Made by a program: the position numbers and the translations under genes. The notes under the pieces are model-generated. The model was not told the origin of the DNA, made no database searches, and saw nothing but the letters and a program-made list of their open reading frames with translations. Positions 1 to 29,184 of a stretch of DNA of 35,184 bases are shown here, piece by piece. Location: the IMG/VR virus record IMGVR_UViG_3300028388_001610, positions 1-35,184 of that record, one strand, 5' to 3'. Origin of the DNA: a virus. Positions within the stretch are counted from its first letter, which is position 1. Each line of letters begins with the position of its first letter.

Positions 1-1296
1 CTGGATCAGGTCAACGGCACCGAGGCAAATCGAATCGTTATTGAGCCGGATAGCGGAGCGTCACCTGTTATCGAATCGCTGGCAGTTAATCGGGTTAGCC
101 ACCTTTGGTTTAGCGGACTGACGTTTACCCACAACGTCGCGAATACCGACTCTCCGGGTACGGTCGGCGGAATCTGGGCGCCGAGTCGATTTTCGCCATC
201 GAACCCAACCGGCGCAGACGTTACGCCCGGCCCGTTTGTGATAGAAAATTGCACGTTTAGCGGTTACAACGAGTGCATAAATTGCACCTATGGCGGAACA
301 GTTCAGCTCAACTTCGGCGGGTTCTTTATTGCAGACAACACGATCATCGGTGACAAACCCGCTGATGTGCTTAGTCGCCCGGCAGACGGCGACGGATGGG
401 GTATCAGGCTTTCTTATAGCCCCGAGAATTTTATCGGGTACAACGAAATCCGCAATTGTGGCGACGGCATGAACGGCGAAGAACGCTGGGATATTGTCGG
501 CAACAAGATATGGGATTGCTCAGACGATGCCATTTCGACGGATGGCTCAGAATCCAACGTTCGTATCTGGGGCAACCGAATTGATAGCATCCGCGCTTAT
601 GCAATCTCTTGGCAACCGCAGAATAGCGGTGGCTGGTATCTTTGCTATAACCAAGTAACAAATTGCGGCTTCGGTGCGTTCAAGTGGCGCTACTCGGATC
701 GCAACGTATTCATCGGGAATACCATTCAGCCAAACCCGAACCCGATTGGTAACTGGATTAGAGGTTATCATCGCAACAACCTTTTCGTTCTCGGCAACGC
801 AAACATCTACTCAAGCGGCGCTGGCGCGGATGATAGAGAAGAAAGGGCAGGCCAGTACCTTCCAAACTGGACTGTAGATACTGACTACAATGGATTCGAT
901 CATAACGAAGACGGTGGCGGCAATTTTGCCTTCTGGGGTTTTGATGGCGTGAACCGCTCTGGATACGCTACTATTGCCGCATTCCGCAGCGCGGCAGCGA
1001 CAGCGGGATCGACTGCAATTTCCCTGGAGGAAAACTCCATCTCTGTTAATGCCGTGGATATTCTGACCTCGACAACATACGACAAAGACACGCCGATAGA
1101 ATTAGCCGCTGGAACAAACGCTGCTGTTGATGCGGGCATTTCGGTGCCGAACCTTGCAAGTGCTACCGTATTGGGAACAGCGACGCCTGACCTCGGCTGT
1201 ATTCAGCGCGGAGCAACACCATATCAAGTCGGCCCACGAACTAGCGAGCTAGGCGTGTCAATGGACCAGCGTACCTATCACTGGAGTATTTACTAA
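1..1296 (+). CDS. Right-handed beta-helix virion protein (5' end missing)
   Basis: The reading frame is open from the first base, so the gene starts outside the window; the ATG-like codon near 238 is internal. Short recurring strands such as FVIENCTFSGY, YNEIRNCGDGM and NRIDSIRAYAIS, rich in Asn and Gly at turns, are typical of right-handed parallel beta-helix (pectate-lyase-like) folds. Phages use this fold for tailspikes and polysaccharide-binding or degrading proteins. No catalytic residues can be assigned from sequence alone. The stop overlaps the next ATG (TAATG), which suggests translational coupling. It lies upstream of the tail terminator and tail tube genes, so a head-fibre, neck or tailspike role are all possible. 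The fold call is fairly safe; enzymatic activity is inference. Confidence 0.75.
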   Translation: MDQVNGTEANRIVIEPDSGASPVIESLAVNRVSHLWFSGLTFTHNVANTDSPGTVGGIWAPSRFSPSNPTGADVTPGPFVIENCTFSGYNECINCTYGGTVQLNFGGFFIADNTIIGDKPADVLSRPADGDGWGIRLSYSPENFIGYNEIRNCGDGMNGEERWDIVGNKIWDCSDDAISTDGSESNVRIWGNRIDSIRAYAISWQPQNSGGWYLCYNQVTNCGFGAFKWRYSDRNVFIGNTIQPNPNPIGNWIRGYHRNNLFVLGNANIYSSGAGADDREERAGQYLPNWTVDTDYNGFDHNEDGGGNFAFWGFDGVNRSGYATIAAFRSAAATAGSTAISLEENSISVNAVDILTSTTYDKDTPIELAAGTNAAVDAGISVPNLASATVLGTATPDLGCIQRGATPYQVGPRTSELGVSMDQRTYHWSIY

Positions 1297-2036
1297 TGGC
1301 AATTACTTTGGTCGGAGTAACCACAGCGATTGATTCTGTTGGGACTATAAATGACTTGAGCATTGATCTACCTGGGGCTTCTCCGGGCGATGATATTGCT
1401 GCAAATGATGTGGCTATCATAACTAATTATCACCGTAGGTCGGGGAACACGCTGCGTCCGACAGGTTTCGATATAGAACGAGAGGACGATGAGAATGCTG
1501 ATAGCACGTTGCTAATTAGCGGTATTTACTCAAAAGTTCTAACTGGCGCAGAGACGACCATAACACAGGTTTTCGACCCGCTGAATCTTGACTCAGCAAA
1601 ATCGTCAATGTGTTTCGTTTATCGCGGTGCCAACACAGCACAATCGTTAGACGTTGCTGCTACTTATGTGTTTCAAAACGATTCGACCCCAAATTTCCCT
1701 GCGATTACCCCTACTAGCGACAACGGTGCAGTTTTGGGAGTGCAAATGGTCGGTGTAACATCACTTGAGTATACGGCGCTTGCCAACCCTGCAACACCTG
1801 CTCTTACATGGGAGAGTTGGTATACGACAGGCCTTCCCTCAGACCAAGTTGCTATTGTTAATATGTTTGCGCTTATGTCATTGGATTACGGAACCGCCGG
1901 TGCACTAACATTTTCTCAAATGAGTCATACATATACCGGAACGGACTTTGCACTTAATAGGCTTTATTCAATTGCTTTGCGCCCTGCACCAGTAGACCCT
2001 ACCCACCCCTTCACATCAGTAACACTGTCTGGATAG
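1296..2036 (+). CDS. Putative beta-rich virion-associated protein
   Basis: A 246-residue protein with no cysteine-rich or catalytic motif that I recognise. It is rich in Ser, Thr, Ala and Val with alternating hydrophobics, as in beta-sandwich virion proteins. It starts at an ATG overlapping the preceding stop. Its layout resembles the protein at 4665-5462: both start MA(I/V)T and both end in a similar tail (HPFTSVTLSG here, NPFASVDITL there), so they may be distant paralogues or share a C-terminal docking segment. Function unknown; a decoration or fibre-associated role is inferred from position between a beta-helix protein and a glycoside hydrolase. Confidence 0.6.
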   Translation: MAITLVGVTTAIDSVGTINDLSIDLPGASPGDDIAANDVAIITNYHRRSGNTLRPTGFDIEREDDENADSTLLISGIYSKVLTGAETTITQVFDPLNLDSAKSSMCFVYRGANTAQSLDVAATYVFQNDSTPNFPAITPTSDNGAVLGVQMVGVTSLEYTALANPATPALTWESWYTTGLPSDQVAIVNMFALMSLDYGTAGALTFSQMSHTYTGTDFALNRLYSIALRPAPVDPTHPFTSVTLSG

Positions 2037-2039
2037 GTC

Positions 2040-3389
2040 GTGAGAAGAAGCGCCATAATTTCGGCTGATCCGCCCAACGTAGCTAGCCCGCTATCGATAA
2101 GTACTGACGGAAGGTACTTCGTGGACCCAAGTAACCAACCTGTCCTTGTAAAAGGTGATACTGCATGGAGTTTGTTTAATCAGATTTCCCTTGCAGACGC
2201 ACGGCTGTACATTGACGATACTGCCACTAGAGGCTTCAACACGCTTCTGGTGTCGATAATTGAAGATTTCTATTCCGACAACACACCGGCGGAAGTAAAC
2301 GTCAACGGCGACAATCCGTTTAACCCAATAAACGATTTCGCAAGTCCGAATGAGGCATATTGGCAACACGTCGATGCTGTAGTCTTATACGCCAAAAATT
2401 TAGGTATAACGTTTTTCTGTGTTCCGTCCTACATCGGGTTTTCCAACGATGGGTGGGCCGCTGAACTGGATGCGGCAACGCAAGCTGATCTTATCTCTTA
2501 CGGTGAATTCCTCGGTGCCAGATACGCATCGTATGGCAACTTTATTTGGCTCGGTGGAGGCGACCGAGCGCTAGATAACCCAGTTGAAGACAGGGCAAAG
2601 CAGGTCGCGTGGGTCGAAGATGTCATGTCTGGAATTATCAGCCAGTGGCCGACAAACGCACCGTGGGGTATTCACACAAGTCTGGATGAAGATCACCGCG
2701 CCAAGTACGGTGCAGACTTTTCGTGGATGAATATCGCAGGGGTCTACACGTACAACGATACGGCAGGAGCAGCCTATACGCTCGCCAATGCTTTCTACAA
2801 CGACACCCCGGCATGGCCGGTGTATTTCCAGGAAGGGAATTACGAGAGCAGTTCAGGGGTAACGGAGAAATTCACACGGACTCAGACCTGGCAATCAGTA
2901 CTTGGTGGTGCGACTGCCGGGTATATATTCGGCAACCATTCAATATGGGCCTTTGGCGCTCAACCAGCGAAATTTTATTCTACTTACACATTGTCTGAGT
3001 TTCAGGATTGGAAAGGTAAGCTGGACACGGTAGGTAGACAGGGCGCAGCGACGGCTGGCGAAATTCTTGAGTCTGTAAGTTGGTACCTTCTTGTACCCGA
3101 TGATGCTGCAACAGTCATAACATCCGCTCTGGGAACAGGCGATAACCGAATTGTCTGTGCAATCTGTTCTGACGACTCTGCCGCGCTTGCTTACGTCCCA
3201 ACAGCGACGAACCCAACCGTAGACATGTCGGAGTTTACCGGAACAGTGGTAGTAGATTGGATTGACCCGATAACCGGCGGTGTCACTTCTGACAACTCGT
3301 ATGCTGCATCCGGCAGTCAGACCATAACACATCCAGGCAATAATTCAGACGGCGAAGCTGACTGGGTTTTACGCATGATAAGTACTTAG
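2040..3389 (+). CDS. Apiosidase-like (DUF4038/GH140-type) glycoside hydrolase
   Basis: A 449-residue protein starting at GTG, 3 bases after the previous stop, with no ATG alternative near the domain start. Residues about 20-80 carry the DUF4038 signature (RYFVDPSNQPVLVKGDTAWS, then RGFNTLLVSIIEDF). FIWLGGGD ending at Asp175 and VYFQEGNYE with Glu265 sit where TIM-barrel strands 4 and 7 would place the acid/base and nucleophile. The last roughly 90 residues look like the small beta domain often annotated as putative collagen-binding in this family. GH140 members cleave apiose from rhamnogalacturonan II, but other DUF4038 proteins have unknown substrates. It has no signal peptide and lies among virion genes, so a virion-borne capsule or glycan depolymerase is the likely role. 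Confidence 0.8.
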   Translation: MRRSAIISADPPNVASPLSISTDGRYFVDPSNQPVLVKGDTAWSLFNQISLADARLYIDDTATRGFNTLLVSIIEDFYSDNTPAEVNVNGDNPFNPINDFASPNEAYWQHVDAVVLYAKNLGITFFCVPSYIGFSNDGWAAELDAATQADLISYGEFLGARYASYGNFIWLGGGDRALDNPVEDRAKQVAWVEDVMSGIISQWPTNAPWGIHTSLDEDHRAKYGADFSWMNIAGVYTYNDTAGAAYTLANAFYNDTPAWPVYFQEGNYESSSGVTEKFTRTQTWQSVLGGATAGYIFGNHSIWAFGAQPAKFYSTYTLSEFQDWKGKLDTVGRQGAATAGEILESVSWYLLVPDDAATVITSALGTGDNRIVCAICSDDSAALAYVPTATNPTVDMSEFTGTVVVDWIDPITGGVTSDNSYAASGSQTITHPGNNSDGEADWVLRMIST

Positions 3390-3398
3390 GAGAAAGGC

Positions 3399-4649
3399 AT
3401 GTTAAAGAGAATCGCGGTTTTCTTTTTTGTACTGCCCACAACCGCATTTAGTGCACACTTCGACATCATCGACCATCCGCAGTTTCCGAATGGCGGGAGC
3501 TATCTTGATACCGGTGTGCCATTGGGTGAGTTCCAGTCGCAGCTACATTGGGGCGTGACGAGAGGTGCAGAACAGCCGATCACGCACATCCACATCCAGT
3601 GCAAGGACTTGCCGCTGTACGCGCACGTAACGCAGCCGTTCGACATCCAGTGCCGGGTGACTCTGTTCCAGTACAACGCCGAGGCAACACTCAATGCGTA
3701 TCGCGGCAAGCTCACGGCCAACTGGCAGAGTGGCGGTACGTCTGCCGGGTTCGCGGGACGCTCCAGTGATGGAGTGTCAATTACCCCTGACCCGAATGGT
3801 GCGGTCAATTCTGAATGGGTGACGATTACGCTTGATCCCGCCTTGTCTCGACGCAGCGGCTATATGTGGTTCCGAGTCGGGGCGTCGGCTACGTTTAACG
3901 TGGAGCCGAATTTTTCGATTCAGGCGACCATCAAGATTCCAGTTCTTATCACGAATGGTGCGCCGGACTCTGGCGCGACGGCAAGCGACTGGCACCCAAA
4001 GACGAGTGGCATTGGTAACCACATCAACGACGCCAATTCGCCGAGCCTGCGCCAGCACGCCTTCATGTATAGTTTCAACGAGGTCGAGTCGCACTGGCCG
4101 ATACTGCCGATCACGCAGCCGTGGCCGGTCACTGTGAAGCTCGGGCGAGCAGAACGTGCATGGGAGAACTGCGGTGTTGAAGAGCATAGCTCGTCGGTCA
4201 GGCTTGATCCGGCACTACACGCCGGGAACCCAGGCCAGTACATCAGCATGTTCTCTGGCGTATCACCTGATCCCCGCTGGAGCTTCCACACCGTCAACCT
4301 TGATCCTCAGTCCCTGTCCGTTGGCCTGCACAAACTAATGGCCGAAGCCACCACGATCAGCAAGCCAAATGCCTGTACTCCGCCCCCTGCGCCGTTTCAG
4401 GACGAGCCGAATATGGAGCAGTCGGGCATCATTCTTGGTAGCTTCTACGTGGGTGAATACGTGCCGCCTACTGAACCGCCCACCGAGCCGCCAACTGAGC
4501 CGCCCGTTGATGATCCGTATCACACGCGCATTTGCGTACACACGGCAAACGCTCGGAAAGAAGCAGAGTTCGGCAGGTACGAGGCTCCTTCCGCAGGTGG
4601 CGGCACAGAGTGCTGGCCGGATGAGATCACTTACGACCGAGTTCGATAG
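3399..4649 (+). CDS. Secreted protein of unknown function with Pro/Glu/Thr linker
   Basis: A 416-residue protein with a clear N-terminal signal peptide (MLKRIAVFFFVLPTTAFSA, cleavage probably after FSA). A strong ribosome site (GGAGAAAGG) lies just upstream. The central part is beta-rich with a few cysteines. A repeated PPTE linker (about residues 353-367) leads to a short C-terminal segment with two cysteines (RICVHTANAR, GTECWPDE). I do not recognise the family. A cleavable signal peptide is odd for a virion protein and suggests that it is exported by the infected cell, or is a moron acquired from a bacterium. Codon use is visibly more G+C-rich than in the flanking genes, which supports separate origin. 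Confidence 0.6.
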   Translation: MLKRIAVFFFVLPTTAFSAHFDIIDHPQFPNGGSYLDTGVPLGEFQSQLHWGVTRGAEQPITHIHIQCKDLPLYAHVTQPFDIQCRVTLFQYNAEATLNAYRGKLTANWQSGGTSAGFAGRSSDGVSITPDPNGAVNSEWVTITLDPALSRRSGYMWFRVGASATFNVEPNFSIQATIKIPVLITNGAPDSGATASDWHPKTSGIGNHINDANSPSLRQHAFMYSFNEVESHWPILPITQPWPVTVKLGRAERAWENCGVEEHSSSVRLDPALHAGNPGQYISMFSGVSPDPRWSFHTVNLDPQSLSVGLHKLMAEATTISKPNACTPPPAPFQDEPNMEQSGIILGSFYVGEYVPPTEPPTEPPTEPPVDDPYHTRICVHTANARKEAEFGRYEAPSAGGGTECWPDEITYDRVR

Positions 4650-4664
4650 AGTAGAGTAGACACT

Positions 4665-5462
4665 GTGGCAGTAACGTATCTTGGTTTTTCTCGTATCGAC
4701 ACCGGCGGTGCGACTGGCGCGACGACACAGACAACGCCATCGTCGGGAGCCACTATTGGCATCTTGATGGACATGTTCTGGGGCGACCACCCAGATTACA
4801 CGTACCAGTCAGTCAGCGTAGATAATCAGTCAGCGACCCTCTCAATAGCTAACAGAACGGACCAGACAACCCCTTTTACAACAGGTGCCATACTTGGCTT
4901 CGTTACTGGGTTTACTTCGGGCTCTAGTGTAGACGTTGTCTGGGATCTCGAGGGGACGACCTATTCATCTAGTGAAGGCGGGCGACTCCACATATTGTGG
5001 TTTTCTGGCGTTGATACTACGACTCCATTTGCTGCGTCCGGAGTAAACTATAATATAAATACGAACTCCGCGACGGTCACACTTAATAGCGTTAATGGGT
5101 TGTTCTGTATCTTCGCAATGGAGGAGTATACAGGCGTAGGAGGGACCGGTATAGTAACTCCTGTAATCACCGGATCCCCAACTATCTCATATCTTACTAA
5201 CGATATTACTTACAGAGCACAGAGATGGGACGTAGGCACTTTTACGGCGAATACCGCAAATACTACGGTCTCTGTTACATCCGACAGAGGTATCGGTTAT
5301 GGTACTGTCATCTTCGCTGCCTTAAACGAAGAGGGAAGTGCTACTAACGATACCGCCAACCCTGCAGGCGCTCAGTCGGTAGGCCAGGCTGGAACAATTA
5401 CGCCGCAAGTAGTTAGTGCAGGACCTATAAACCCGTTCGCTTCAGTAGATATTACGCTGTGA
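4665..5462 (+). CDS. Putative virion protein with one P-x-G-x-x-(A/S) repeat
   Basis: A 265-residue beta-rich protein starting at GTG (MAVTYLGFSRID). Near the C-terminus it carries NDTANPAGAQSVGQAGTI, the same module that is repeated dozens of times in the protein at 5722-9159. It then ends in NPFASVDITL, similar to the end of the 1296-2036 product. This ties it to the neighbouring structural proteins. There is no signal peptide, membrane segment or known catalytic motif. The stop overlaps the start of the next gene. Likely a decoration or fibre component; the exact role is unknown. Confidence 0.6.
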   Translation: MAVTYLGFSRIDTGGATGATTQTTPSSGATIGILMDMFWGDHPDYTYQSVSVDNQSATLSIANRTDQTTPFTTGAILGFVTGFTSGSSVDVVWDLEGTTYSSSEGGRLHILWFSGVDTTTPFAASGVNYNINTNSATVTLNSVNGLFCIFAMEEYTGVGGTGIVTPVITGSPTISYLTNDITYRAQRWDVGTFTANTANTTVSVTSDRGIGYGTVIFAALNEEGSATNDTANPAGAQSVGQAGTITPQVVSAGPINPFASVDITL

Positions 5463-5722
5463 TGACATGTCCGGGCAAAGCAAAACACTGTTGCTGGGTC
5501 AGAGGCAAGGAATGTCGACACATTATTCGCGACTACACAGACGAAAACGGCTATTTTCGTGAAGTTGCTTGCGGATTGCGTGCCGAACTAGGCGATTGGG
5601 ATAAAGTACTAGAAGATCCACGATATCCCGCCAACTCGTGGGCGGCTGGAATAAATTGCAGAGACTGGCCGGAAAGCCCAAAGCAGCATAGAGGCTGCAA
5701 CATCTGCGGAGCGTGTGAGTAG
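5462..5722 (+). CDS. Small cysteine-rich protein
   Basis: An 86-residue protein with nine cysteines, including a CC pair near residue 10 and a C-terminal cluster RGCNICGACE. The spacing suggests metal binding or a disulfide-knitted fold. I chose the ATG overlapping the upstream stop (TGATGA); a GTG 3 bases earlier is also possible. Its stop overlaps the GTG of the next gene (TAGTG), so it appears co-translated with the giant repeat protein. The family is not recognised. It could be a zinc-binding assembly factor or a small virion protein, but nothing visible decides this. Confidence 0.55.
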   Translation: MTCPGKAKHCCWVRGKECRHIIRDYTDENGYFREVACGLRAELGDWDKVLEDPRYPANSWAAGINCRDWPESPKQHRGCNICGACE

Positions 5723-8700
5723 TGGCTACCTGGAATATCACGGTACCAGCGGCATCCGGTGTAGGAGCGTTACTGTCAGACGTAGTCGGTAGCGCAATAA
5801 CACCACCGGGTGACTTTGATGGCGCGACCATTAATAGCGTCGCTGTCAGTGGTACGCCTACGGTAGTAGACAGCGAGAACTCTAACGATAGCATCTGGGT
5901 TCGCTGGTTTGTCCGCACCACGGGCGGTACGGCTGTATACGGCGGTGATGCTAGTGATGCAGCGTCTATATGCTATCACAATGCAAATTTTGATCAGACA
6001 ACACATACTATCGTCGACGGCACTGCACGCAGTCCAGCGCCAACAACAGCAGTTGCTGCCGACTGGGATGAGATTGCGTATAGTTATACCTATACGGTAT
6101 CGGGTAAAGATGACGACAGCACAGTGTCCTGGGCGTCTTTTACCATCGTCGTCGACTACACTCCTTCAGGTAGTACGACTGACGATACCGCTGACCCTAC
6201 GACAGCAGGGGCGACTGGCCAAACCGGCAGTGTAACTGCGATAACCTCAGCCATTGTCTCACCTGCAGGCGTGGCCGTGTCTGGGCTGGCCGGAGCGCTA
6301 ACTAAGTCGTTCATCACTACTGGTCTGTTGGGCGCGGCCGCACTGAGTGGAGCCGGTACGGCCGACGCTGCGATAGGTGGCGGTATAACTGACGCCACTG
6401 CTGAACCAACCGGTGTAGAGGCGACGGCGCTCGTCAAAGATACGGCGTCTACAGTTAACGTCATATACGGCCCAAGTGGCTCGGGTTCTACAGCCGCAGC
6501 CGGTACGGCGGTAGCAGACGCGGCAACAGGTACGATTAGCGACACGGCTTCTCCTAGTGGTGTTGTTTCTACTGGACAGACCGGCAATGTAGCTGTAATC
6601 ACAACTACTACTGTCATAATAGTCCCAGACGGCGCGTCAGCGTCCAGCCAAATCGGCGACGTCGATGTAGCCGCCAATACTAACATAGATGTTACGGCCG
6701 ATGGTGTCTCCGCTACAGGGTCGACAGGTACGGCGATAGCTAGCGTAATCTCTGGTACTACAGATGCTACCGTCGATCCCGTAGGCGTATCATCTACTGG
6801 CGAGGTACAGACGCTAAGCCAGACTACCGTAACTACAGGCGTTCTTGGCAGCTCTTCCACTAGCCAAGCCGGCACGGCTGGTGTGAGTCTAGTAGCCGGA
6901 GCAGAGACTGATCCTTCAGGTGTAAGTGCAGACGCCCAAGCCGGCAACGTAGAGACGGTTACACAACAACTGGCTCTAGCGAATCCGTCCGGTACAGAAG
7001 CGTCTGGCCAAATCGGCGACATCGATGTAGCCGCCAATACTAACATAGATGTTACGGCCGATGGTGTCTCCGCTACTAGCCAGGCCGGTACGGCGATAGC
7101 CAGCGCAATCTCTGGTACTACAGATGTTACCGTCGATCCCGTAGGTGTATCGTCTACCGGCGAGGTACAGACGCTAAGTCAGACTACCGTAACTACAGGC
7201 GTTCTTGGCAGTTCTTCCACTAGTCAAGCTGGCGCGATAAGTGTCGGTCTAACCGCCGGAGCCCAAGCTGATCCTGTCGGAGCGAGCGCGTCTAGTCAAG
7301 CGGGCGTTCCCGCCGTAGTCACTGTGTCGAACGCCTTGGCTACACCAGATGGTGTAGAAGCGCTAGCGCTAGTTAAGGACACGGCGTCTACAGTCAATAT
7401 AGTCTATGGACCGAGTGGCGCGGAGATAGCTAGTGCAATCGGTGTCACCCAAGCGCTGGCGGTAGATCCAGGTAACGCTATAGCTTTACCTGATGGCGTC
7501 GACGCAACTGGTTTAACTAGGCTTTTCGGCATATCATCTACAGACATAGAGCCAGACAGCGTAGATAGCTCTGGATCAGCGGGTATATTGACTGCTGAAT
7601 CTGCAGGACCTGTGTCTAATGCGCAAGCTGATCCGACCGGCGTTCAAGCGATTGCTCAATCTGGCGATCCAAGTATCGCTGCGCAGTTCGACGCGACGAT
7701 AACACTAGATGGCGTGATTACTAGCGGCCAGGCTCAGACACTCAATCGAGCCACCGTAGTTACTGGCATTACTGGTTCGGAAGCGTCCACAGTAGCAGGT
7801 ATAGCCGAAGGCGTACTCGACGGCAATCGCGTTGTCGATCCTGTTGGTGCAGTTGCGAGTGCAGAAGTCGGATCTGTCTCCATAGCGACTACGGGCAGTG
7901 TTACTGCTACGTTTGCCGGCGTAGAGGCTAGCAGCCAGGCCGAGGTATTCGATCAGTCCTCTACATCCTTCGACATTGATGGCGTCGAAACTACGTCAGA
8001 ACCCGGCATTGTCGCTATACAGATTATCGCTGGCCAGATCAACGCTACAGCTTTGCCAGACGGCGCAGCTTCGATCAGCCAAGTAGGCGACGTCGGCATA
8101 GAGGCGTCCGGCAGTGTAGTAGCTCTACCGATAGGTGTTGACGCCTCCGGATTGGCGGAGTCCGTAGACGCCAATACTATAACCAATACGTCAGCACAAC
8201 CAAGCGGTATCGAGGCGGTAGGCCAGGTCGGAGACGCTCAGGCTAGTTCGATTACGAATACGTCGGTCGATCCTATTGGCGCAGTAGCGACAACCGAAGC
8301 CAGCGGTGCTGACCTTGTCGTCAGTGCAGTCTCTCGACCGGTCGGTGCTGAGCTTACAACTGATGTCGGTTCGGTAGATGTCGACTTTATCGGTAGCGTT
8401 ACAGCTCTACCGGACGGCGCTCTCGCTAACGCTCTACTCGGCGACGCCGTAGGCCGTACGTCAGGTACGGAAGTAGTTGTAGCACCCGGAACCCAGACTA
8501 GCGGCGCAGCTGGCTCTGTATCTGTCATCGCCCAACGAGTAGTTACGGCCGATCCTACAGGCGTACAGTCGACAAGTGGGGTCGGCGAAGTAGATACAAC
8601 TTACGGCGCTACTGCATCACTAATCGGCGTAGAGATCTCTAGCGAAGCGGGTACGATATTGACGTCGACGACTTCGTTCGTCATCACACGTCCTATAGGC

Positions 8701-9159
8701 GTATCGTCAATAGTCGCCACTGGTGAAGTAAGCACGTTCATTCTCTCTGGTTCCAACTACTTCACTGAGGCTAGAGACTTAGAGGCGCGTTTCGACGCGG
8801 CCTGGAATCACACAGATATTCAATGGTACGGGGTGCCCTTCACTAGCAAGACTCGATCAGAGTGGGTTAGATTTGTTAACCGATCTGGTCGTGCGGAACA
8901 ACTCTCTACCGGCAATGCTAATAACGCGTATCGGTATAGTGGTTCTGTCGTCATAGAGATTTATGTGCGACCGAATACAGGTTCTATGAGAGCGATGGAG
9001 CTCGCTGGTCTAGCAGAAGATGTTTGGAGAAGTGCGATCTTCTCAGACCTTCGAATGAGTGTACCGAGAATCGAGGAAGATGGAATCGTCGATGGTTGGT
9101 ACAAAGTAAATGTAATCACGTCTTATCAAAGGGACGCCTTTCAGTCTAGGAGTATTTAG
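5722..9159 (+). CDS. Giant repeat protein with C-terminal tail-terminator domain
   Basis: A 1145-residue protein starting at GTG. Residues 1 to about 150 look like a beta-sandwich (MATWNITVPAASG to TIVVDYTP). From about 155 to 1005 there are degenerate repeats of roughly 20-25 residues built on P-x-G-V-x-(A/S)-x(4)-G, a low-complexity beta module seen in phage fibre and decoration proteins. Residues about 1010-1145 (ARDLEARFDAAWN, IQWYGVPF, EIYVRPNTGSM) resemble the DUF4128/gpU-like tail-terminator family, normally a stand-alone protein of about 130-140 residues. The tail tube gene begins 3 bases downstream, exactly where a terminator gene is expected. I see no obvious internal start codon with a ribosome site before the terminator domain. 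The terminator may be released by proteolysis, or the repeats may decorate the tail top. The domain call is from pattern memory, not a search. Confidence 0.7.
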   Translation: MATWNITVPAASGVGALLSDVVGSAITPPGDFDGATINSVAVSGTPTVVDSENSNDSIWVRWFVRTTGGTAVYGGDASDAASICYHNANFDQTTHTIVDGTARSPAPTTAVAADWDEIAYSYTYTVSGKDDDSTVSWASFTIVVDYTPSGSTTDDTADPTTAGATGQTGSVTAITSAIVSPAGVAVSGLAGALTKSFITTGLLGAAALSGAGTADAAIGGGITDATAEPTGVEATALVKDTASTVNVIYGPSGSGSTAAAGTAVADAATGTISDTASPSGVVSTGQTGNVAVITTTTVIIVPDGASASSQIGDVDVAANTNIDVTADGVSATGSTGTAIASVISGTTDATVDPVGVSSTGEVQTLSQTTVTTGVLGSSSTSQAGTAGVSLVAGAETDPSGVSADAQAGNVETVTQQLALANPSGTEASGQIGDIDVAANTNIDVTADGVSATSQAGTAIASAISGTTDVTVDPVGVSSTGEVQTLSQTTVTTGVLGSSSTSQAGAISVGLTAGAQADPVGASASSQAGVPAVVTVSNALATPDGVEALALVKDTASTVNIVYGPSGAEIASAIGVTQALAVDPGNAIALPDGVDATGLTRLFGISSTDIEPDSVDSSGSAGILTAESAGPVSNAQADPTGVQAIAQSGDPSIAAQFDATITLDGVITSGQAQTLNRATVVTGITGSEASTVAGIAEGVLDGNRVVDPVGAVASAEVGSVSIATTGSVTATFAGVEASSQAEVFDQSSTSFDIDGVETTSEPGIVAIQIIAGQINATALPDGAASISQVGDVGIEASGSVVALPIGVDASGLAESVDANTITNTSAQPSGIEAVGQVGDAQASSITNTSVDPIGAVATTEASGADLVVSAVSRPVGAELTTDVGSVDVDFIGSVTALPDGALANALLGDAVGRTSGTEVVVAPGTQTSGAAGSVSVIAQRVVTADPTGVQSTSGVGEVDTTYGATASLIGVEISSEAGTILTSTTSFVITRPIGVSSIVATGEVSTFILSGSNYFTEARDLEARFDAAWNHTDIQWYGVPFTSKTRSEWVRFVNRSGRAEQLSTGNANNAYRYSGSVVIEIYVRPNTGSMRAMELAGLAEDVWRSAIFSDLRMSVPRIEEDGIVDGWYKVNVITSYQRDAFQSRSI
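6642..7260 (+). repeat. 360-bp in-frame duplication inside the repeat protein gene
   Basis: The stretch from about 6642 to 6900 recurs at exactly +360 bp (about 7002 to 7260) with few differences, for example around the shared segments CAAATCGGCGAC (6649 and 7009) and GATGTAGCCGCCAATACTAA. The offset is a multiple of three (120 codons), so the frame is kept. High nucleotide identity against otherwise diverged protein repeats points to a recent tandem expansion of several modules at once. Confidence 0.85.
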
Positions 9160-9161
9160 CT

Positions 9162-10334
9162 ATGACACTCGCATCAAGTAATCGTGCCTCTTTACGCTAC
9201 ATCGCTGAGAGCACTTTCGGGACTACACCGGCTACGCCGGCGTTTAATGAGCTTCGTTATAACGGCGAGTCTCTCAACTACAACATTAACAACGTGGTCT
9301 CTGACGAGATTCGCGCAGATCGCATGACTACTGACCTTATTCAGGTCCAGGCTGATTCGTCAGGTGACATCAATTTCGAGCTGAGCTATAGCGCGTTTGA
9401 TGACTTCATAGCAGCCTCTCTTGGTAGCGCATGGAGCTCTGATCTCGCCGTCGCTGAGTCCGACATCGATGCCGCTGCTGCTGACAATAGCTTCAACACA
9501 GCGGCTGGCGATTTTGTCGCTGATGGTATAGTTGTCGGCAAATGGATTAAGGTGTCAGGATTCACCGACCCAGCTAATAACGGGTTTTTCCGAGTAGTGA
9601 GTGTTATCTCGACCAAGATCGTCGTAGCCGGCGGGACCTTAGTGACCGAACCCGCTGGTGATGCCATCACTATGGTCGGCGCCCACGTACGTAATGGTGT
9701 TACTGAGCTTTCGTTCAGTATTCAGAAAGTGCTCGAGGACGTGTCTCCGAATCAGTACTTCCTCTTTCGAGGCATGCGAGTAGGTCAGATGCAGCTCGCC
9801 TTCGAGACTGCCGCCATTCTTACAGGTACGTTCTCGTTCATGGGTCTATCCACTAAAGCAGACACGACTGGTGAAGCCGGCCAAACACTAGTTAACGCGC
9901 CGACGAACGAGGTGATGAACGCTACCGGCAACGTGCAGAACATTTGGATCGATGACACGATCACGACCGGCACCTACTTCAATAACCTGAACTTGAACGT
10001 TAATGGCAACCTCCGTCCCCAGGACGCGCTCGGCAGTCTTCCGCATATCGGTATAGCCCTAGCTCGTATGGAAGTTACAGCCGACGCGGAGCTCTACTTC
10101 CAGGACGATACTGAGTACCAGAAGTATCTAAATGCCTCGTTCTTCAGCCTTGCGTTCCGAGTTCAGGACAACTCTGGTAACGCGTACATCTTCACTCTGC
10201 CTCGATGCAAGTACGAGACAGGGGAGGTTGTAGCCGGCGGACTTGACCAGGACGTATTTCTGTCGACTACTATTCGGGCGCTACGGGATCCGACGACAGA
10301 TAGCATGGTGCAGATCGATCGCTTCGCGGCTTAA
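9162..10334 (+). CDS. Major tail tube protein
   Basis: A 390-residue protein. The N-terminus (SNRASLRYIAESTFGTTPAT, then LRYNGESLNYNIN and SDEIRADRM) matches the Phage_tube_2 type of siphophage tail tube protein as I know it. The family forms the hexameric rings of the tail tube. An insertion at about residues 100-170 (TEPAGDAITMVGAHVRNG) may be an extra surface domain. It starts at ATG, 3 bases after the terminator-domain gene stop, and is followed by a strong hairpin and a new promoter-like region. Both features fit a highly expressed gene that closes a transcript segment. Confidence 0.85.
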   Translation: MTLASSNRASLRYIAESTFGTTPATPAFNELRYNGESLNYNINNVVSDEIRADRMTTDLIQVQADSSGDINFELSYSAFDDFIAASLGSAWSSDLAVAESDIDAAAADNSFNTAAGDFVADGIVVGKWIKVSGFTDPANNGFFRVVSVISTKIVVAGGTLVTEPAGDAITMVGAHVRNGVTELSFSIQKVLEDVSPNQYFLFRGMRVGQMQLAFETAAILTGTFSFMGLSTKADTTGEAGQTLVNAPTNEVMNATGNVQNIWIDDTITTGTYFNNLNLNVNGNLRPQDALGSLPHIGIALARMEVTADAELYFQDDTEYQKYLNASFFSLAFRVQDNSGNAYIFTLPRCKYETGEVVAGGLDQDVFLSTTIRALRDPTTDSMVQIDRFAA

Positions 10335-10340
10335 TCGTCA

Positions 10341-10377
10341 GTCTGACTCTAGGAGCGTCATACTCCTAGAGTCAGAC
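10341..10377 (+). terminator. Perfect 15-bp hairpin after the tail tube gene
   Basis: GTCTGACTCTAGGAG (10341-10355) pairs perfectly with CTCCTAGAGTCAGAC (10363-10377) across a 7-nt loop. It begins 7 bases after the tail tube stop codon. No T-tract follows, so it is not a classical intrinsic terminator. It could be a 3'-end stabilising or processing hairpin, or a partial terminator that keeps tail tube mRNA abundant relative to downstream genes. Confidence 0.65.
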
Positions 10378-10475
10378 ACGATAGCGCTACTTATTTCGTA
10401 TAAAACAGTCGAGAACGACATAAAATGATACGAAAAGACAGCAAGCTCACGGCAGAGACTGTAATTAGTACTCTG

Positions 10476-10505
10476 CTATTCTCTGCTAGTATAGTACTAT
10501 ACTAG
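10476..10505 (+). promoter_or_regulatory. Conserved promoter/operator motif, copy 1
   Basis: This 30-base block contains a perfect 20-bp palindrome, CTAGTATAGTACTATACTAG (10486-10505), preceded by CTATTCTCTG. The same block, with small changes, occurs at 24366-24395 (- strand) and 29291-29320 (+ strand). Here it sits about 25 bases upstream of the tail assembly chaperone start, in the only sizeable gap of the tail operon. The gap 10335-10530 otherwise holds only the hairpin above. The position suggests a phage-specific promoter or an operator. No clear host sigma-70 -35 box is visible. Confidence 0.55.
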
Positions 10506-10530
10506 TAACTTTAGACGGAGTAATATAGAG

Positions 10531-10962
10531 ATGTTTAATATCGATCAGACAACAGTTGATAAGGAAGAGTCTGGAGTATGGACTCGTTTTCGCGGTAGTG
10601 AGTTTCTTATCGCATCAAGTGGAAGTAATCGATTCCAAAAAATATTCGCAAAGCTTCAGATGCCGTATAGAAAAGAGATACTCAAGAATAGACTAGATCC
10701 TGAGACACAGATCGAGATTATGTCTCGAGCACTGTCTCGAGCCGTAGTCCTCGACTGGCGCGACGTCACTAACAACGACGGTGAGAATGTGCCTTACGAT
10801 GTCGAGATTTGCTACAACGTTATTCGCAATAACGCAGAATTTAGAGACTTTGTTACAGACTTTGCTACCGAAATCAGTAACTTTATCTCTGAAGAGCGAG
10901 ATGAGCTGGGAAAGTTTGCAGAGAAATCATCAACTGGCAAGTCCAATACGGAAGCCGCCTGA
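10531..10962 (+). CDS. Tail assembly chaperone, short form (gpG-like)
   Basis: A 143-residue acidic protein in the position of lambda gpG, between the tail tube and tape measure genes. The ribosome site is GGAG about 12 bases upstream, within ACGGAGTAATATAGAG. It is mostly helical by appearance (ETQIEIMSRALSRAVV, FVTDFATEISNFISEE). The zero-frame stop lies at 10960-10962. Before that, codons CTG GGA AAG at 10906-10914 contain the GGGAAAG slippery heptamer used by lambda G/GT, so this is the non-shifted product. Tail chaperones of this class bind the tape measure protein and tube subunits during assembly and are absent from the virion. Confidence 0.8.
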   Translation: MFNIDQTTVDKEESGVWTRFRGSEFLIASSGSNRFQKIFAKLQMPYRKEILKNRLDPETQIEIMSRALSRAVVLDWRDVTNNDGENVPYDVEICYNVIRNNAEFRDFVTDFATEISNFISEERDELGKFAEKSSTGKSNTEAA

Positions 10963-11243
10963 AATTTCTCGAAGAACTACAAGATAAAGGATTAGAACCG
11001 GATGCGCTCAATAAAAAACCAGAGATACCCATATACTTACTTGAGTATATCGAGGCTTTCTACGCGCTATCTTCGAAGAGATCAGCAAATTTCTCAGGAT
11101 CTAATCCGATATCAATGGCCGATATCGACGCTTATCTTAGACTATTTCCTACTGATAACATTCGTCTCTTTGTATACCTGGTGTCCGAAATGGATGACGA
11201 ATATCTGCAATATCAGTATAACAAGGTGAAGACAAAGAGCTAG
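10531..11243 (+). CDS. Tail assembly chaperone, -1 frameshift fusion (gpGT-like)
   Basis: Slippage at GGGAAAG (10908-10914) moves ribosomes into the -1 frame, which is open from 10905 to a TAG at 11241-11243. The fusion has about 128 zero-frame residues plus about 109 new ones, about 237 in all. The T segment (REIINWQVQYGSRLKFLEEL, then PDALNKKPEIPIYLLEYIEA, ending YNKVKTKS) has no plausible start of its own, so a frameshift best explains why it is kept open. In lambda the same heptamer gives a few percent GT product, and the G:GT ratio is needed for tail assembly. The tape measure ATG follows 3 bases after this stop. Efficiency cannot be judged from sequence. Confidence 0.85.
10908..10914 (+). 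other. Programmed -1 ribosomal frameshift site
   Basis: GGGAAAG is in the zero-frame phase G GGA AAG, matching the X XXY YYZ rule and identical to the lambda G/GT slippery site. It lies 46 bases before the zero-frame stop, and the -1 frame is free of stops from 10905 onward. Confidence 0.85.
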
Positions 11244-11246
11244 GTT

Positions 11247-13892
11247 ATGGCTGAGAATACTCGATTAAATGTAGAAGTTGACGCCAGTAGAGCGACGACG
11301 TCAGTTAATACGCTGACTGCAGCCTTTGCTAGGTTGCAGTCAGCGGCCTCTTCTGTCGGCTCATCATTTACCAGGCTGGGCGGCATTACGACCAGTGTAT
11401 TTGGTCGAATGGCATCACTAGCTGGCGGCGCATTTAGAGTGATGAGGGGCGGATTTAAGGCTATTGCCGCTTCGATAAGGACCTTTATGTCGGTATTTCG
11501 TACGGCATTAAAGCTCGTAGCTATATCAGCGACGACTTTTACACTCTTTGCTCGTAGTGTAGCAGACGCTGGTAATACGATTAACAAGTTTATCAATACT
11601 CTTGTAATCTTGAAGGGCAATACGACCGATGCTACGGCAGAATTGGAAGAACTGTTTAGTCTAGCGAATAGACTAGGTACGTCGTTTACTGCAGCCGCAC
11701 AACCGTTTACTAAATTCGCAGCTGCTGCGGCAGGCGCGCTCAGTGATCAGTCTATTCGAGACGTGTTCGAGGCGTTTTCTACTGTAGGTGTCGCTCTTCA
11801 ATTGGGTCAGTCAGAGGTTACTGGTGTATTCTTAGCGCTCCAACAGATCGCGTCTAAGGGCGTAGTATCCATGGAAGAATTGAGACTGCAGCTCGCTGAG
11901 CGTGTTCCGGGAGCGATGCGACTTGCCGCATCGTCGATGGACATGTCTATGGCTGAATTCGAAAAAGCCGTTCAACAGAGAACTATTAATGCTGGCGAAT
12001 TCTTAGAGCGATTCGCTGCTAAGCTTAAGGCGACATTTGGCGATGCTGCCGAACTAGCGTCTACTCGACTATTCGCTAATATTCAGAGACTAGGTAACGA
12101 GTTGCTCAAGTTTAGACAAAAAGTCTTTGCCTCCGGATTTGAGTCTGGCCTACAAAACCTCGTCCAATCAGCGATTAACTTCTTAAAGGATAACCCAGAA
12201 CTAGCTGAGGCCATGGGCCGATTCTCTGAGAGCGTGTTTAATCGGGTCGCGGATTTCCTCAATAACTTATCCGGTGATAAGGTAATTAGTATCATAAATC
12301 GCATCATAGCTGCGATAGAGACTCTAATCAACGCTCTAAATGTCCTAATCTTTAAGATCCAGATGCTCTTTAACGACGAGCTCAAGTCGCGACTATCGTC
12401 TCTAGCCGATGCCACGGAAGAGTTGGGCGATAAGCTACAGCAACGAGAAGAAGGCAAACTAGTAAGAGAGACTGGACAGATAACAGTCAGTCGAGATAGT
12501 CGGTTTCTTCCGGGAGGCATTACTAGAACCGCTACGCGAAGAGAGATGGCCGAAGCAGTAAACGATACACTAATGGCCGAATCAGCGCTTAATACTATGC
12601 GAATAGCTATAGAAAAGAATAGAGAAGAGTTAGCACAGTTCGGCATAGAGTTTGGTAAGCTACCTGAGGGCATGTTAGACGTGTTTACTGGGGGCGAACT
12701 AGACGTAAGACCAGCAAGAGTTTCTCTACCTCGTATAGAGCCAATACCTGAAGATCGGCGCGGCGCCTTTGATCTCAGCAATCAGCCCGTAAAAGATTTT
12801 GGTATGAGTCCGTCGCTTCTTGATGCGCTAGAGAGAGCCGATCGTATGATAGAGATTACGACCCCAGAGTTCTATCAGAAACTCTTATCAGGAGAGATTC
12901 GTGATGCGATGAGCGACTTAGATAGAGTTACTCTCGACCTCAATGTAGCTAATGAGGCGCAGTCTATCTTACTAGATAAGATTAAGACTACTGAGGAAGA
13001 GCTCGATGCGTTGAGAAAGAGCGACGTTTCAAATGAACAGGCCGCAGAACTCAACCAAAATACTCAGAAACTAAACGAGCTACAGCAAGAATATCTGGCC
13101 GGCGAGGAGCGGAAGAAGGAGCTTAAGGAAGAGCTGATTAAGCTTATGGCCGAGGAGCAGCGATACTTGGCACAGTTTAAGACGTTCCAACAGGAGCTAG
13201 AGGAGACCTTTACGTCGACTCGTGATGTCTTTATAAACATGATCAAGTCTACTGAGGACGCGATCGCTGACTTCGTAGCTACAGGCAAGATGAACTTCAA
13301 GGATCTAGCCGATGAGATCATACGGCAGTTGACCAGAATGGCTGTTCAAGCGTTTCTTACGAGGTTCGTTCTTGGGCCACTTCTTGGTCCTATGAGCGAC
13401 AATATTGGTAGTGGTCTGGGCGGCACGTTTGCGGAACCAACGCCAAACTCTAATATGGGTATGGGCCCACCTGTTGGTCATACCGGTGGAGTATTCCATG
13501 ATGGCGGTATTGTAGAGGGTACGGCCTCTAGATTCAGCTCTCTAAAGCGAAACGAGCGAGCTATAATCGTTGAGCGAGGTGAAGGAGTATTTACGCGAGA
13601 CCAGATGGCCAACATGGCAAGCCTATCCGACGTATCTCGAGTAGCTCGATCAAACATATCTCCAATCAACGTATCTGCACCAACCGTTAACGTGGAGAGA
13701 GGGTCTACTCGGGTTGAAGTTATTAACAACACTCCGTCTCAAGCGGACGTACAGACGATTCCGCAAGGCGACGGATCTGAGTTGATACGGGTGATGATCG
13801 GAGCAGTCGCTAGTGATATAGCGGCTGACGGACCTATTTCACAGACAATGAAGGGTAAGTTCGGTCTAAGAAATCGAACTAATATACGATAA
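11247..13892 (+). CDS. Tape measure protein
   Basis: An 881-residue protein. Residues about 110-260 (AQPFTKFAAAAAGALSDQS, VSMEELRLQLAERVPGAM) match the tape-measure N-terminal domain found in lambda-like siphophages. Residues about 640-715 (FINMIKSTEDAIADFVATGK, then NFKDLADEIIRQLTRMAVQA) match the C-terminal lambda gpH-type domain. Hydrophobic stretches near residues 70-115 are usual for tape measures, which help the genome cross the inner membrane. Long helical, heptad-rich parts lie between. The protein sets tail length, and 881 residues would predict a tail of roughly 130 nm by the usual 1.5 angstrom-per-residue rule. Its stop overlaps the next ATG (TAATG). Confidence 0.9.
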   Translation: MAENTRLNVEVDASRATTSVNTLTAAFARLQSAASSVGSSFTRLGGITTSVFGRMASLAGGAFRVMRGGFKAIAASIRTFMSVFRTALKLVAISATTFTLFARSVADAGNTINKFINTLVILKGNTTDATAELEELFSLANRLGTSFTAAAQPFTKFAAAAAGALSDQSIRDVFEAFSTVGVALQLGQSEVTGVFLALQQIASKGVVSMEELRLQLAERVPGAMRLAASSMDMSMAEFEKAVQQRTINAGEFLERFAAKLKATFGDAAELASTRLFANIQRLGNELLKFRQKVFASGFESGLQNLVQSAINFLKDNPELAEAMGRFSESVFNRVADFLNNLSGDKVISIINRIIAAIETLINALNVLIFKIQMLFNDELKSRLSSLADATEELGDKLQQREEGKLVRETGQITVSRDSRFLPGGITRTATRREMAEAVNDTLMAESALNTMRIAIEKNREELAQFGIEFGKLPEGMLDVFTGGELDVRPARVSLPRIEPIPEDRRGAFDLSNQPVKDFGMSPSLLDALERADRMIEITTPEFYQKLLSGEIRDAMSDLDRVTLDLNVANEAQSILLDKIKTTEEELDALRKSDVSNEQAAELNQNTQKLNELQQEYLAGEERKKELKEELIKLMAEEQRYLAQFKTFQQELEETFTSTRDVFINMIKSTEDAIADFVATGKMNFKDLADEIIRQLTRMAVQAFLTRFVLGPLLGPMSDNIGSGLGGTFAEPTPNSNMGMGPPVGHTGGVFHDGGIVEGTASRFSSLKRNERAIIVERGEGVFTRDQMANMASLSDVSRVARSNISPINVSAPTVNVERGSTRVEVINNTPSQADVQTIPQGDGSELIRVMIGAVASDIAADGPISQTMKGKFGLRNRTNIR

Positions 13893-27099: not shown

Positions 27100-27526
27100 T
27101 CTTCTTGGCCTTCTCTAGTATTCGAGCAAACTTCAGCTCTGGGTCCACCCAAGAACTCGGTTTAACTGCGTCGGCAGCATCATAGCCTTCACGACCGACC
27201 TTAGTACCAGACTTCTTAAGAAGATTGGCTTGATGTACAGCGTCGAAGAGTTCGGCATGAGTCTTTTCACCGATTCCGTTCTTGTAGAAGATACCCAGAA
27301 GAAAGTACTCAAGATCAATCAATCCGTCAAGAATGCCTATGAAATCGCCTCTTTCGTACGACTGTTCTATCTCGTCAATTTCTTCTCTCAATTGATGCAT
27401 TGACAGCTTAAACTCATCAACTTTCTGTTGGCCGGGTTCTCGCTTGCTTATGCCCAGTATGCTTCGGTTGAAGTTGATAACATCCAGCATCTGCTTGTTT
27501 ACTGGGATATACTCTATGTCGCTCAT
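27092..27526 (-). CDS. MazG-like/PRA-PH nucleotide pyrophosphohydrolase
   Basis: A 144-residue all-alpha protein with the metal-binding pattern of the superfamily: EEIDE (48-52) and DGLID (67-71). A conserved C-terminal arm follows (DAVHQANLLKKSGTKVGREG). Enzymes of this type hydrolyse dNTPs to dNMP and pyrophosphate. In this operon the economical role is removing dCTP, which supplies dCMP and keeps unmodified cytosine out of phage DNA (the T4 gp56 role). The ATG overlaps the carbamoyltransferase stop (ATGA). Substrate not provable from sequence. Confidence 0.8.
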   Translation of the reverse strand: MSDIEYIPVNKQMLDVINFNRSILGISKREPGQQKVDEFKLSMHQLREEIDEIEQSYERGDFIGILDGLIDLEYFLLGIFYKNGIGEKTHAELFDAVHQANLLKKSGTKVGREGYDAADAVKPSSWVDPELKFARILEKAKKSA

Positions 27527-29184
27527 GTTATTACCACCGTATACACTCGTTTATCCTCATCGTTACTGAGTTGATATTGATGACATCGCAGCACGTCTTG
27601 CATGCTGTACACTATGGGCATTCCGTGCTCGTTAAATGATGTGTTTATGAGCATTTCGTGCTGAGTTTCGACCAGTACTGGGTGTAACCAGTGATCAAAA
27701 TCTACTATCTGAGGGCGACCCGTATATCCCGTAGGATTATCTGGATCATATATAGGAGTATTGTGGGCCGCGCCTAGAAAATCCGGGTCCATCATTCTAT
27801 AGTCTCGCGTACAGATCATGTACTCGAGCGACTTGTGGACCTTCGTAATGTTCTCGAACAGTCTAGTAGACTCTCTTCTCGTGACTATCGGAGCCATTGG
27901 CATGATAGTCGATCGTCCGTTAAGTGAGTTAATGTACTGCACGTTCTCTACAGTTGGTAAAGCGAGTGTAGTAGTATTGCCTAGTGCGCGAGCACCGAAC
28001 TCCATCGAATCTCTTACTACATTAACGATCTTGTTCTTGGCGATAAGATCGTTGATGAAGGGCACATACTCATTTGGGTCGTTTACGAAACAGTGTAGTC
28101 GCTCGCACTCTAACGGATACGTCTCTCGCTTACCCCACATGAGATGTTCCGGCCATACGAAATCTTTCTCCATAGCATGATAGAGTCCGATAGGAGCACC
28201 CTGATCTCCAGCCAGAGGCATTACGCAGAACTGGCCTGGCACGCACTTCGTCAGTTCGTTATTGAGCTTGACGTTCATAAAGAGACCGCCTACGACTATC
28301 AAGTTCTCTGGGTCATGCTCTTTTACGATACTCTTCATTACGTACTCTAGCCTGCTCTGCACGTAAAAAGCGACTATGGCTCGCTTGGCCTCTTCCGAGT
28401 ACTGTCTTTCTACGCCAAGCTTCTTGAGAAATTTGTCGAAGTGGAGAGCATACTGGTATCGAAGAGCGGGAAGAGCATCAAGTGCTAGGAGTGGGTCGTA
28501 TCGATCGACAGTGTCTCTGTCACGAATTATTTCGAGGTGAGTCTCGGCCGCTTTTTCAGCGAGCTCTGTAACTATCTCAATTTCTTCCTCTATGAGATAG
28601 TTGTCAACGTGTGCCTCGTAGCCAAGCAGTTTATACTCATCCTGGTTCTCCCTCATACCCAGGTAAGCAGTAGCGTACTGGTACATTAGACCCAAACTTG
28701 ACTCGTATCCGAAGGACCTTCGGAACAATTGCGGCTCATGATAGTTATCGAGCCAGTATAGAGACATCGTCTCGCCGAAGTTACCGAAACCATCCGCTAC
28801 GAGTACTAGAGTATTACTGGCTGGAATTTCGTCTCCGGCAAACGCGCAGGCCGACCAAGCGTGAGCATCGTGATGGGTAAAGTCCATCGATACCGAGTGG
28901 ACCTTCGCGTTTGGTAGGTTAAAATGGAAGTACAGCGGGTCGAAGTACTTGTCGTGAATTTCCGGTAGCTCACCGTCTACGAACCAATGTGATATGTAGA
29001 CGTCAGCTATATTCTCGAACTCTTTCGGGTACAGTCGCTTAATCTGCTCTATCGCATTACGAGGAAATGAGCTATCACTCTTTTTCTTCGTGAGTCGCTC
29101 TTCCTCATAGCCCGCAATTACGTGACCGTTACGAAGCAGTACGGCACTCGAATTATGTCCTAGTGATAGGAGTAATCGTGACAT
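27523..29184 (-). CDS. Carbamoyltransferase (NodU/CmcH/TobZ family)
   Basis: A 553-residue full-length member. N-terminal SLGHNSSAVLL and EEERLTKKKSDSSFP, metal site HHDAH (104-108), LVLVADGFGNFGETMSLYW, IVVGGLFMNVKLNNEL, PLAGDQGAPIG, FGARALGNTTTLA and the C-terminal LINTSFNEHGMPIV are all family signatures. The family makes carbamoyl-adenylate from carbamoyl phosphate and ATP and transfers the carbamoyl group to a hydroxyl. Leading an operon with a hydroxymethylase, kinase and pyrophosphohydrolase, it probably carbamoylates hydroxymethylcytosine in DNA. RBS AAGGACG precedes the ATG, and a 76-nt structured segment lies just upstream. Confidence 0.9.
   Translation of the reverse strand: MSRLLLSLGHNSSAVLLRNGHVIAGYEEERLTKKKSDSSFPRNAIEQIKRLYPKEFENIADVYISHWFVDGELPEIHDKYFDPLYFHFNLPNAKVHSVSMDFTHHDAHAWSACAFAGDEIPASNTLVLVADGFGNFGETMSLYWLDNYHEPQLFRRSFGYESSLGLMYQYATAYLGMRENQDEYKLLGYEAHVDNYLIEEEIEIVTELAEKAAETHLEIIRDRDTVDRYDPLLALDALPALRYQYALHFDKFLKKLGVERQYSEEAKRAIVAFYVQSRLEYVMKSIVKEHDPENLIVVGGLFMNVKLNNELTKCVPGQFCVMPLAGDQGAPIGLYHAMEKDFVWPEHLMWGKRETYPLECERLHCFVNDPNEYVPFINDLIAKNKIVNVVRDSMEFGARALGNTTTLALPTVENVQYINSLNGRSTIMPMAPIVTRRESTRLFENITKVHKSLEYMICTRDYRMMDPDFLGAAHNTPIYDPDNPTGYTGRPQIVDFDHWLHPVLVETQHEMLINTSFNEHGMPIVYSMQDVLRCHQYQLSNDEDKRVYTVVIT

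Follow-up and report, generated by a model that had tools for sequence, protein, structure and literature searches.

The viral sequence analysed here (IMG/VR record IMGVR_UViG_3300028388_001610; all 35,184 nucleotides, hereafter the window) carries on its plus strand, at 5722-9159, a single open reading frame (ORF) of 1145 aa that starts with GTG and is open end to end. Residues 1-151 (5722..6174) form an N-terminal domain, the probable distal head; residues 156-1008 (6187..8745) consist of 24-residue repeats; and residues 1013-1145 (8758..9156) form a tail terminator domain, recognised by its phrog_179 match and its fold. The ORF ends at 9159 and the tail tube gene begins at 9162, the slot that standalone terminators fill in relatives. 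An initial annotation of this DNA had described a terminator-like domain at the C-terminal end of a protein, fused behind about 850 repeat residues and directly preceding the tube gene, and all three observations hold; it had missed the separate, non-repeated domain, with relatives of its own, that occupies residues 1 to about 151. On the comparisons below, we think it reasonably probable that the product of this gene is a neck fibre that is held in place by its terminator domain and whose head can be exchanged.

Residues 1016-1138 match phrog_179, 'tail terminator', at an E-value of 1.8e-15, and a profile built from relatives places the terminator domain at residues 1013-1138 (E 2e-34); the match to PF13554 (E 1.2e-4, 22.7 bits) falls under that family's cut-off of 27. 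Structure prediction of the C-terminus, suggested as a check in the initial annotation, points to the same family. In an AlphaFold2 model of residues 870-1145, made using 52 terminator rows, 115 residues, in the terminator part, reach a predicted local distance difference test score (pLDDT) of at least 90, and the best Foldseek matches are the head-to-tail interface proteins of phages FCWL1 and T1. VIA-align gives Z 16.1 against the T1 terminator (1.9 A over 126 residues) and Z 10.8-10.9 against lambda gpU, and terminator residues are conserved in the domain. Fold, sequence family and slot before the tube are thus shared with the phrog_179/PF13554 terminators (lambda gpU, T1 gp42, T5 p142, RcGTA), and on sequence and predicted fold the last 133 residues form a genuine siphophage tail terminator. 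Those terminators are standalone proteins of ~130-160 residues, whereas ~1010 residues precede the domain here; the usual small form is replaced by a 1145-aa protein with the terminator domain at its C-terminus.

The periodicity of the 853 repeat residues is pronounced (z reaches 6.7 at a lag of 24 and 6.5 at a lag of 48, whereas the maxima from 300 shuffles average 2.3), and the repeats hold 10 Lys/Arg in all. At the DNA level a 277-nt stretch is duplicated at a distance of 360 nt (5 x 72) with 88% identity, and because this spacing is five 72-nt units, the repeats grow in frame. Searches with the repeats gave no match in phages by tblastn and matched 0 of 32 stretches in viral_contigs; NCBIfam profiles run against eight proteins returned nothing relevant. 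Third-position GC is even over the three parts of the ORF (0.471, 0.460 and 0.456), and the value for the terminator (0.456) resembles that of the repeats (0.460) rather than that of the tube (0.592), which is suggestive, though from 136 codons only. An assembly artefact, or a decaying gene that lost a stop codon by chance, might be entertained for a metagenomic contig whose reads were unseen and whose terminator is highly diverged. The even composition, the conserved terminator residues and the recurrence of the same architecture in nine distinct proteins, one of them from a genome deposited as complete and circular, make this highly improbable.

A different possibility is that the ORF yields separate products, through a protease cut or internal initiation, so that an ordinary terminator ring forms and the N-terminal part becomes a free virion or secreted protein. 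The nearest start-like codons 5' of the terminator domain, TTG at residue 980 and ATT at residue 1007, do precede it, and in L167, a podophage-like contig, a protein with the N-terminal domain and repeats exists without a terminator. But ATG, GTG and TTG are absent from residues 981-1037, which span the repeat/terminator boundary. ATT starts are very rare, which weighs against internal initiation at 1007. None of the seven fused ORFs found in a later scan (below) has an ATG within 30 residues 5' of the domain, and the in-frame fusion is kept in all nine distinct proteins, where a stop codon would cost nothing if separation were wanted; we consider separate products unlikely.

ORFs in L167 and L174 begin with sequences that are 53-54% identical to the N-terminal domain. 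A small Cys-rich ORF lies just 5' of each, its stop sharing one base with the start codon that follows. The window has the same arrangement: an 87-aa Cys-rich ORF (5459..5722, plus strand), the cassette partner, overlaps the GTG of the fused gene by one base of its stop and is 57% identical to the 91-aa ORF of L167. The repeats behind the domain are 22 residues long in L167 and 21 in L174. While the L174 ORF runs off its contig, that of L167 is complete at 351 residues and ends without a terminator; the L167 record has no phrog_179 match, though the same search matched no control either, and the neighbouring genes match 'head closure Hc3' and 'DNA ejection' families. A search for the domain in phages gave no match. 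Given these copies of the domain and its partner, we recognise, by sequence comparison, a two-gene cassette with a constant N-terminal domain and variable repeats that different phages carry and that, in the window, runs on in frame into a terminator. The fusion probably arose when a mobile cassette of this kind became joined to the terminator. The ~1010 residues preceding the terminator are, by the same comparison, an acquired module of N-terminal domain and 24-residue-repeat stalk. The AlphaFold model of the N-terminal domain (mean pLDDT 53) gave weak jelly-roll matches only, and we predict a beta-rich, jelly-roll-like fold with low confidence.

Two close relatives of the window, L087 and L160 (tube identities of 66% and 80%), have an ordinary arrangement. 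L160 is a 49-kb contig binned with an Acidimicrobiia metagenome-assembled genome (JASJBC010000013.1), and in both loci the order is portal, capsid, adaptor, closure, Neck1, terminator and tube, with gene names assigned by order and by likeness to L083/L084. Their terminators are 136 residues long, start with TTG and overlap the preceding gene; the window's terminator domain is 44% identical (58/131) to the standalone protein of L087 and 38% to that of L160. Trees unite the window, L087 and L160 with support of 99/97 (110 rows) and 100/98 (61 rows), and the fused terminator of the window is thus nested among standalone relatives. The window's seven pieces 5' of the repeats (six ORFs within 238-5722 and the N-terminal domain) had no match in the searched pieces of the L160 contig. 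Since these pieces are unmatched and the order in relatives is ordinary, the arm and its neighbouring genes look like additions in the window's lineage. A close-relative scan using the terminator alone matched 0 of 5 stretches. Between its tail tube and chaperone genes L160 has some 10 kb of further sequence with additional genes, one of which looks, by eye, like a methyltransferase ORF.

Fused terminators recur well beyond the window. A tube-anchored survey gave 134 rows, 125 with a terminator and 9 without; the rows are partly redundant and hold 108 distinct domain sequences. A lead of more than 60 residues before the domain occurs in seven of the 125 terminator rows: WIN and L001 (both the window), L084 and L108 (one contig), L086, L112 and L118. 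The last was rejected as a fusion, its lead of 107 residues being a mechanical count; an ATG at the domain and an arginine-rich leader indicate read-through. L084 encodes a 641-aa protein with the terminator domain at 517-638 (phrog_179, 1.1e-11) and a weak fn3-like stretch before it. In the same phage the head-tail adaptor (L084:3902-4801) is enlarged to 299 aa, its best phrog_477 stretch starting at residue 127. L086 is phage ctIqW946 (MW202657.1, Manatee Spring), a complete, circular genome of 56,278 bases in which a 546-aa 'hypothetical protein' (L086:4729-6369) sits in the terminator slot and contains two tandem terminator domains (2e-11 and 3e-23); the gene preceding it matches the GP4 fibre I family (PF23140, 2.6e-21). 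The non-terminator N-terminal part before the tandem domains is Gly/Ser/Ala-rich.

The later scan added 34 new loci (L176-L209) with 39 terminator ORFs, 32 standalone and seven fused. The fused ones are L180 and L181 (1119 aa, the same protein), L178 (657 aa), L177 (634 aa), L179 (571 aa), L186 (295 aa) and L176, which is the L112 contig again. With L084, ctIqW946, L112, L177, L178, L179, L180 (=L181) and L186, the window's protein makes nine distinct fused proteins. On the 110-row tree the fused label requires four changes, at least three of these changes (gains or losses) being forced by well-supported branches. For the 61-row tree, rows were picked from the survey and the later scan and near-copies dropped; its single change for the fused label refers to FUSED versus SECOND only and not to all rows. 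There the second domain of ctIqW946 pairs with a standalone row (100/93), while L084 pairs with a very long branch and its placement is unsure. We read the window, ctIqW946 and the L112-L180 clade as separate origins, with L084 and L186 not assigned. Candidate fusions in Alphaproteobacteria prophages were rejected: 19 of 385 genomes matched phrog_179 (20 matches), and the five longest open frames have the look of arginine-rich read-through ahead of a domain that stands alone (for G102 and G039, 282 and 167 aa stop-to-stop, against 703 and 442 from the search tool).

In L177, L178, L179, L180 and L181 a standalone terminator gene directly follows the fused one. Fused and standalone copies within a record are 45-56% identical (57/126 to 70/125) in the four pairs compared, and on the 61-row tree these four pairs (L181 being dropped as a copy) form two sister groups, with the fused copies in one and the standalone copies in the other. 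These pairs raise the possibility that the window's protein is an extra paralogue, with a standalone terminator upstream capping the tube and the fused copy being substoichiometric or forming a second ring; the two terminator domains in one chain of ctIqW946 could be taken the same way, and sequence upstream of the window is unseen. Of the 30 window ORFs scanned, none was recognisable as a terminase, portal or major capsid gene, and the IMG/VR record has no completeness value, for which reasons we treat the window as a fragment with its left end within inserted genes. The initial annotation had held that a separate terminator gene elsewhere in the genome would count against it; there is none in the record, which has one phrog_179 match within its 35,184 bases, a finding confined to a record without head genes. 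The complete ctIqW946 genome likewise matches phrog_179 at one place, within the fused gene, L186 and L084 have no second copy in the stretches examined (L186 has only the fused form, L114 only a standalone one), and the window's copy sits in the standard slot beside the tube. An extra paralogue is thus a minority possibility, rather unlikely on present evidence. In L114, by eye, a small repeat-like protein (2471-3022) lies between terminator and tube, and the C-terminus of the tube protein (3038-4261) looks similar, as though more than one tail protein had acquired repeats.

L179 and L180 offer a view of how the outer parts vary. Their terminators are identical at 125 of 126 residues, and the long DNA matches to either side are 83-87% identical, but the N-terminal ~130 residues of L179 and ~695 of L180 do not align; protein similarity begins at residues 133 and 697, within the repeats. 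By Pfam, the L180 head has DUF2341 (5.6e-16) and a sub-cutoff Glyco_hydro_16 match, the L179 head a sub-cutoff F5/8-type-C match, and a beta-propeller repeat is above cut-off in L177 and below it in L178. Host-interaction fibres typically exchange their outer part on a constant anchor. It is mainly because heads swap on a constant anchor in L179/L180 that we favour a surface-binding role. An arm without a host-binding role, protecting or stiffening the neck or acting in assembly, has parallels in the neck passage collar of lactococcal phage TP901-1, reported as non-essential (PMC6669499), and in the neck decoration proteins of phage 812, proposed to reinforce the neck (PMC12886913). Complete head exchange between related phages fits surface interaction better, as do the weak beta-propeller and F5/8-type-C matches, DUF2341 and the sub-cutoff Glyco_hydro_16; a non-binding arm is in our judgement improbable.

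For the neck fibre that we favour, we infer the position at the neck from the terminator anchor. If uncleaved, the protein would still bring its C-terminal domain into the tube-capping ring. In R4C the terminator helices sit on the ring's outer side (PMC10276861), and in phage 812 helices enclose the terminator core from outside (PMC12886913); because of this placement, arms would be expected to leave the ring outward. With the N-terminal helix of the terminator outside the ring, the repeat stalk would leave the head-tail junction outward as up to six fibres, and the N-terminal domain, displayed at the far end of the stalk, may contact host surface or capsule weakly but with high avidity. Recombination within the repeats would then let phages swap heads while the anchor is kept. 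The initial annotation had pictured six long arms on a hexamer at the head-tail junction; the idea of neck arms gains from the eight other fused proteins and from head swaps on a constant anchor, while six arms per hexamer would be only one arrangement, as the five related records with both fused and standalone terminators would allow mixed or double rings.

Several observations weigh against a neck fibre of this kind. The head swap was seen in the L179/L180 clade and not in the window's lineage. In T5 the terminator's N-terminus contributes to the contact between subunits, and a His tag placed there was reported to leave the protein monomeric (PMC11784142), therefore an N-terminal fusion might disturb the ring. 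The tip of the neck fibre of cyanophage A-1(L) was reported not to bind its host (PMC10966104), therefore a neck fibre need not bind a receptor. Relative to L160, the window's terminator (38% identity) is more diverged than its tube (80%), which could mean a changed function. While the 24-residue repeats of a stalk are present, their fold has no confident prediction: self-aligned repeat segments lined up poorly and were left out of structure modelling, and those repeats that were modelled have pLDDT below 50, so that a rigid stalk lacks model support. The weak model of the N-terminal domain likewise does not settle its fold, and hence binding.

The genes around the fused ORF, from 238 to 13892, lie on the plus strand and belong to a tail module and to the inserted region. 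The tail tube protein (9162..10334) matches PF18906 (1.8e-43) and is the protein 80% identical to the L160 tube; family matches identify a tail assembly chaperone (10531-10962) and a tape measure (11247-13892), and minor tail proteins and a J-like protein lie 3' of the latter. The inserted genes at 238..4649 encode a right-handed beta-helix protein, an ORF of unknown function, an apiosidase-like glycosidase and a second ORF of unknown function. They are followed by a 265-aa ORF of unknown function (4665..5462) that matches no family above cut-off, is unrelated to L174:2817-3500 and ends, by eye, in one repeat-like unit (NPAGAQSVGQAG). The apiosidase-like glycosidase (2040-3389; PF13204, 9e-57) also has a collagen-binding-like domain and is possibly a virion-borne glycan hydrolase. 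Further along, a Nol-like carbamoyltransferase (27523-29184; phrog_1601) lies near thymidylate synthase, dCMP deaminase and MazG-like genes, a region that may relate to DNA base modification.

Known systems resemble this protein in parts. Myophage and contractile terminators (phage 812 gp99, PVC16; PMC12886913, PMC11784142) likewise combine a core with extra domains, but these contact the sheath or duplicate the core, and no N-terminal repeat arm is described in the passages on them. T4 Wac, the neck passage structures of TP901-1/936 phages, A-1(L) gp82-81-80 and ORF28 of Alteromonas phage R7M share the presumed place at the neck and the presumed build of anchor, stalk and tip; these, however, are separate gene products, fixed, where known, to other neck proteins (as in T4, TP901-1 and A-1(L)), whereas arm and terminator are one ORF in the window. 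A whisker gene of its own, of the kind seen in R7M, was considered and rejected: ORF28 (1154 aa, with PKD/Ig domains) has no Pfam terminator match and the phage has its own 140-aa terminator. Evolved Dit and MTP-TpeX also add a carbohydrate-binding module to a structural tail protein, the carrier being reported as Dit or the major tail protein and not the terminator (PMC6669499). The literature describes terminators whose additional domains bind the sheath, and neck fibres built from separate proteins (PMC12886913, PMC11784142, PMC10966104), and we found no terminator fused to a repeat arm in the available passages of the open-access literature on terminators and neck fibres.

More broadly, and tentatively, at a little short of even confidence, we propose that terminators have repeatedly and independently been put to use as docking sites for neck fibres, with repeat stalks and exchangeable surface-binding heads added N-terminally and, in some phages, a second standalone or tandem terminator tuning fibre number through a mixed or doubled ring. 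The coexisting fused and standalone paralogues raise a testable question of ring stoichiometry. If the proposal is true, large 'hypothetical proteins' encoded at the terminator's usual position would be accounted for, phages would have a simple genetic route for adding modules to the neck, and receptor-like diversity would have a hidden site away from the baseplate; the component that ends tail growth and joins the head would, in some siphophages, also be an organ of host interaction.

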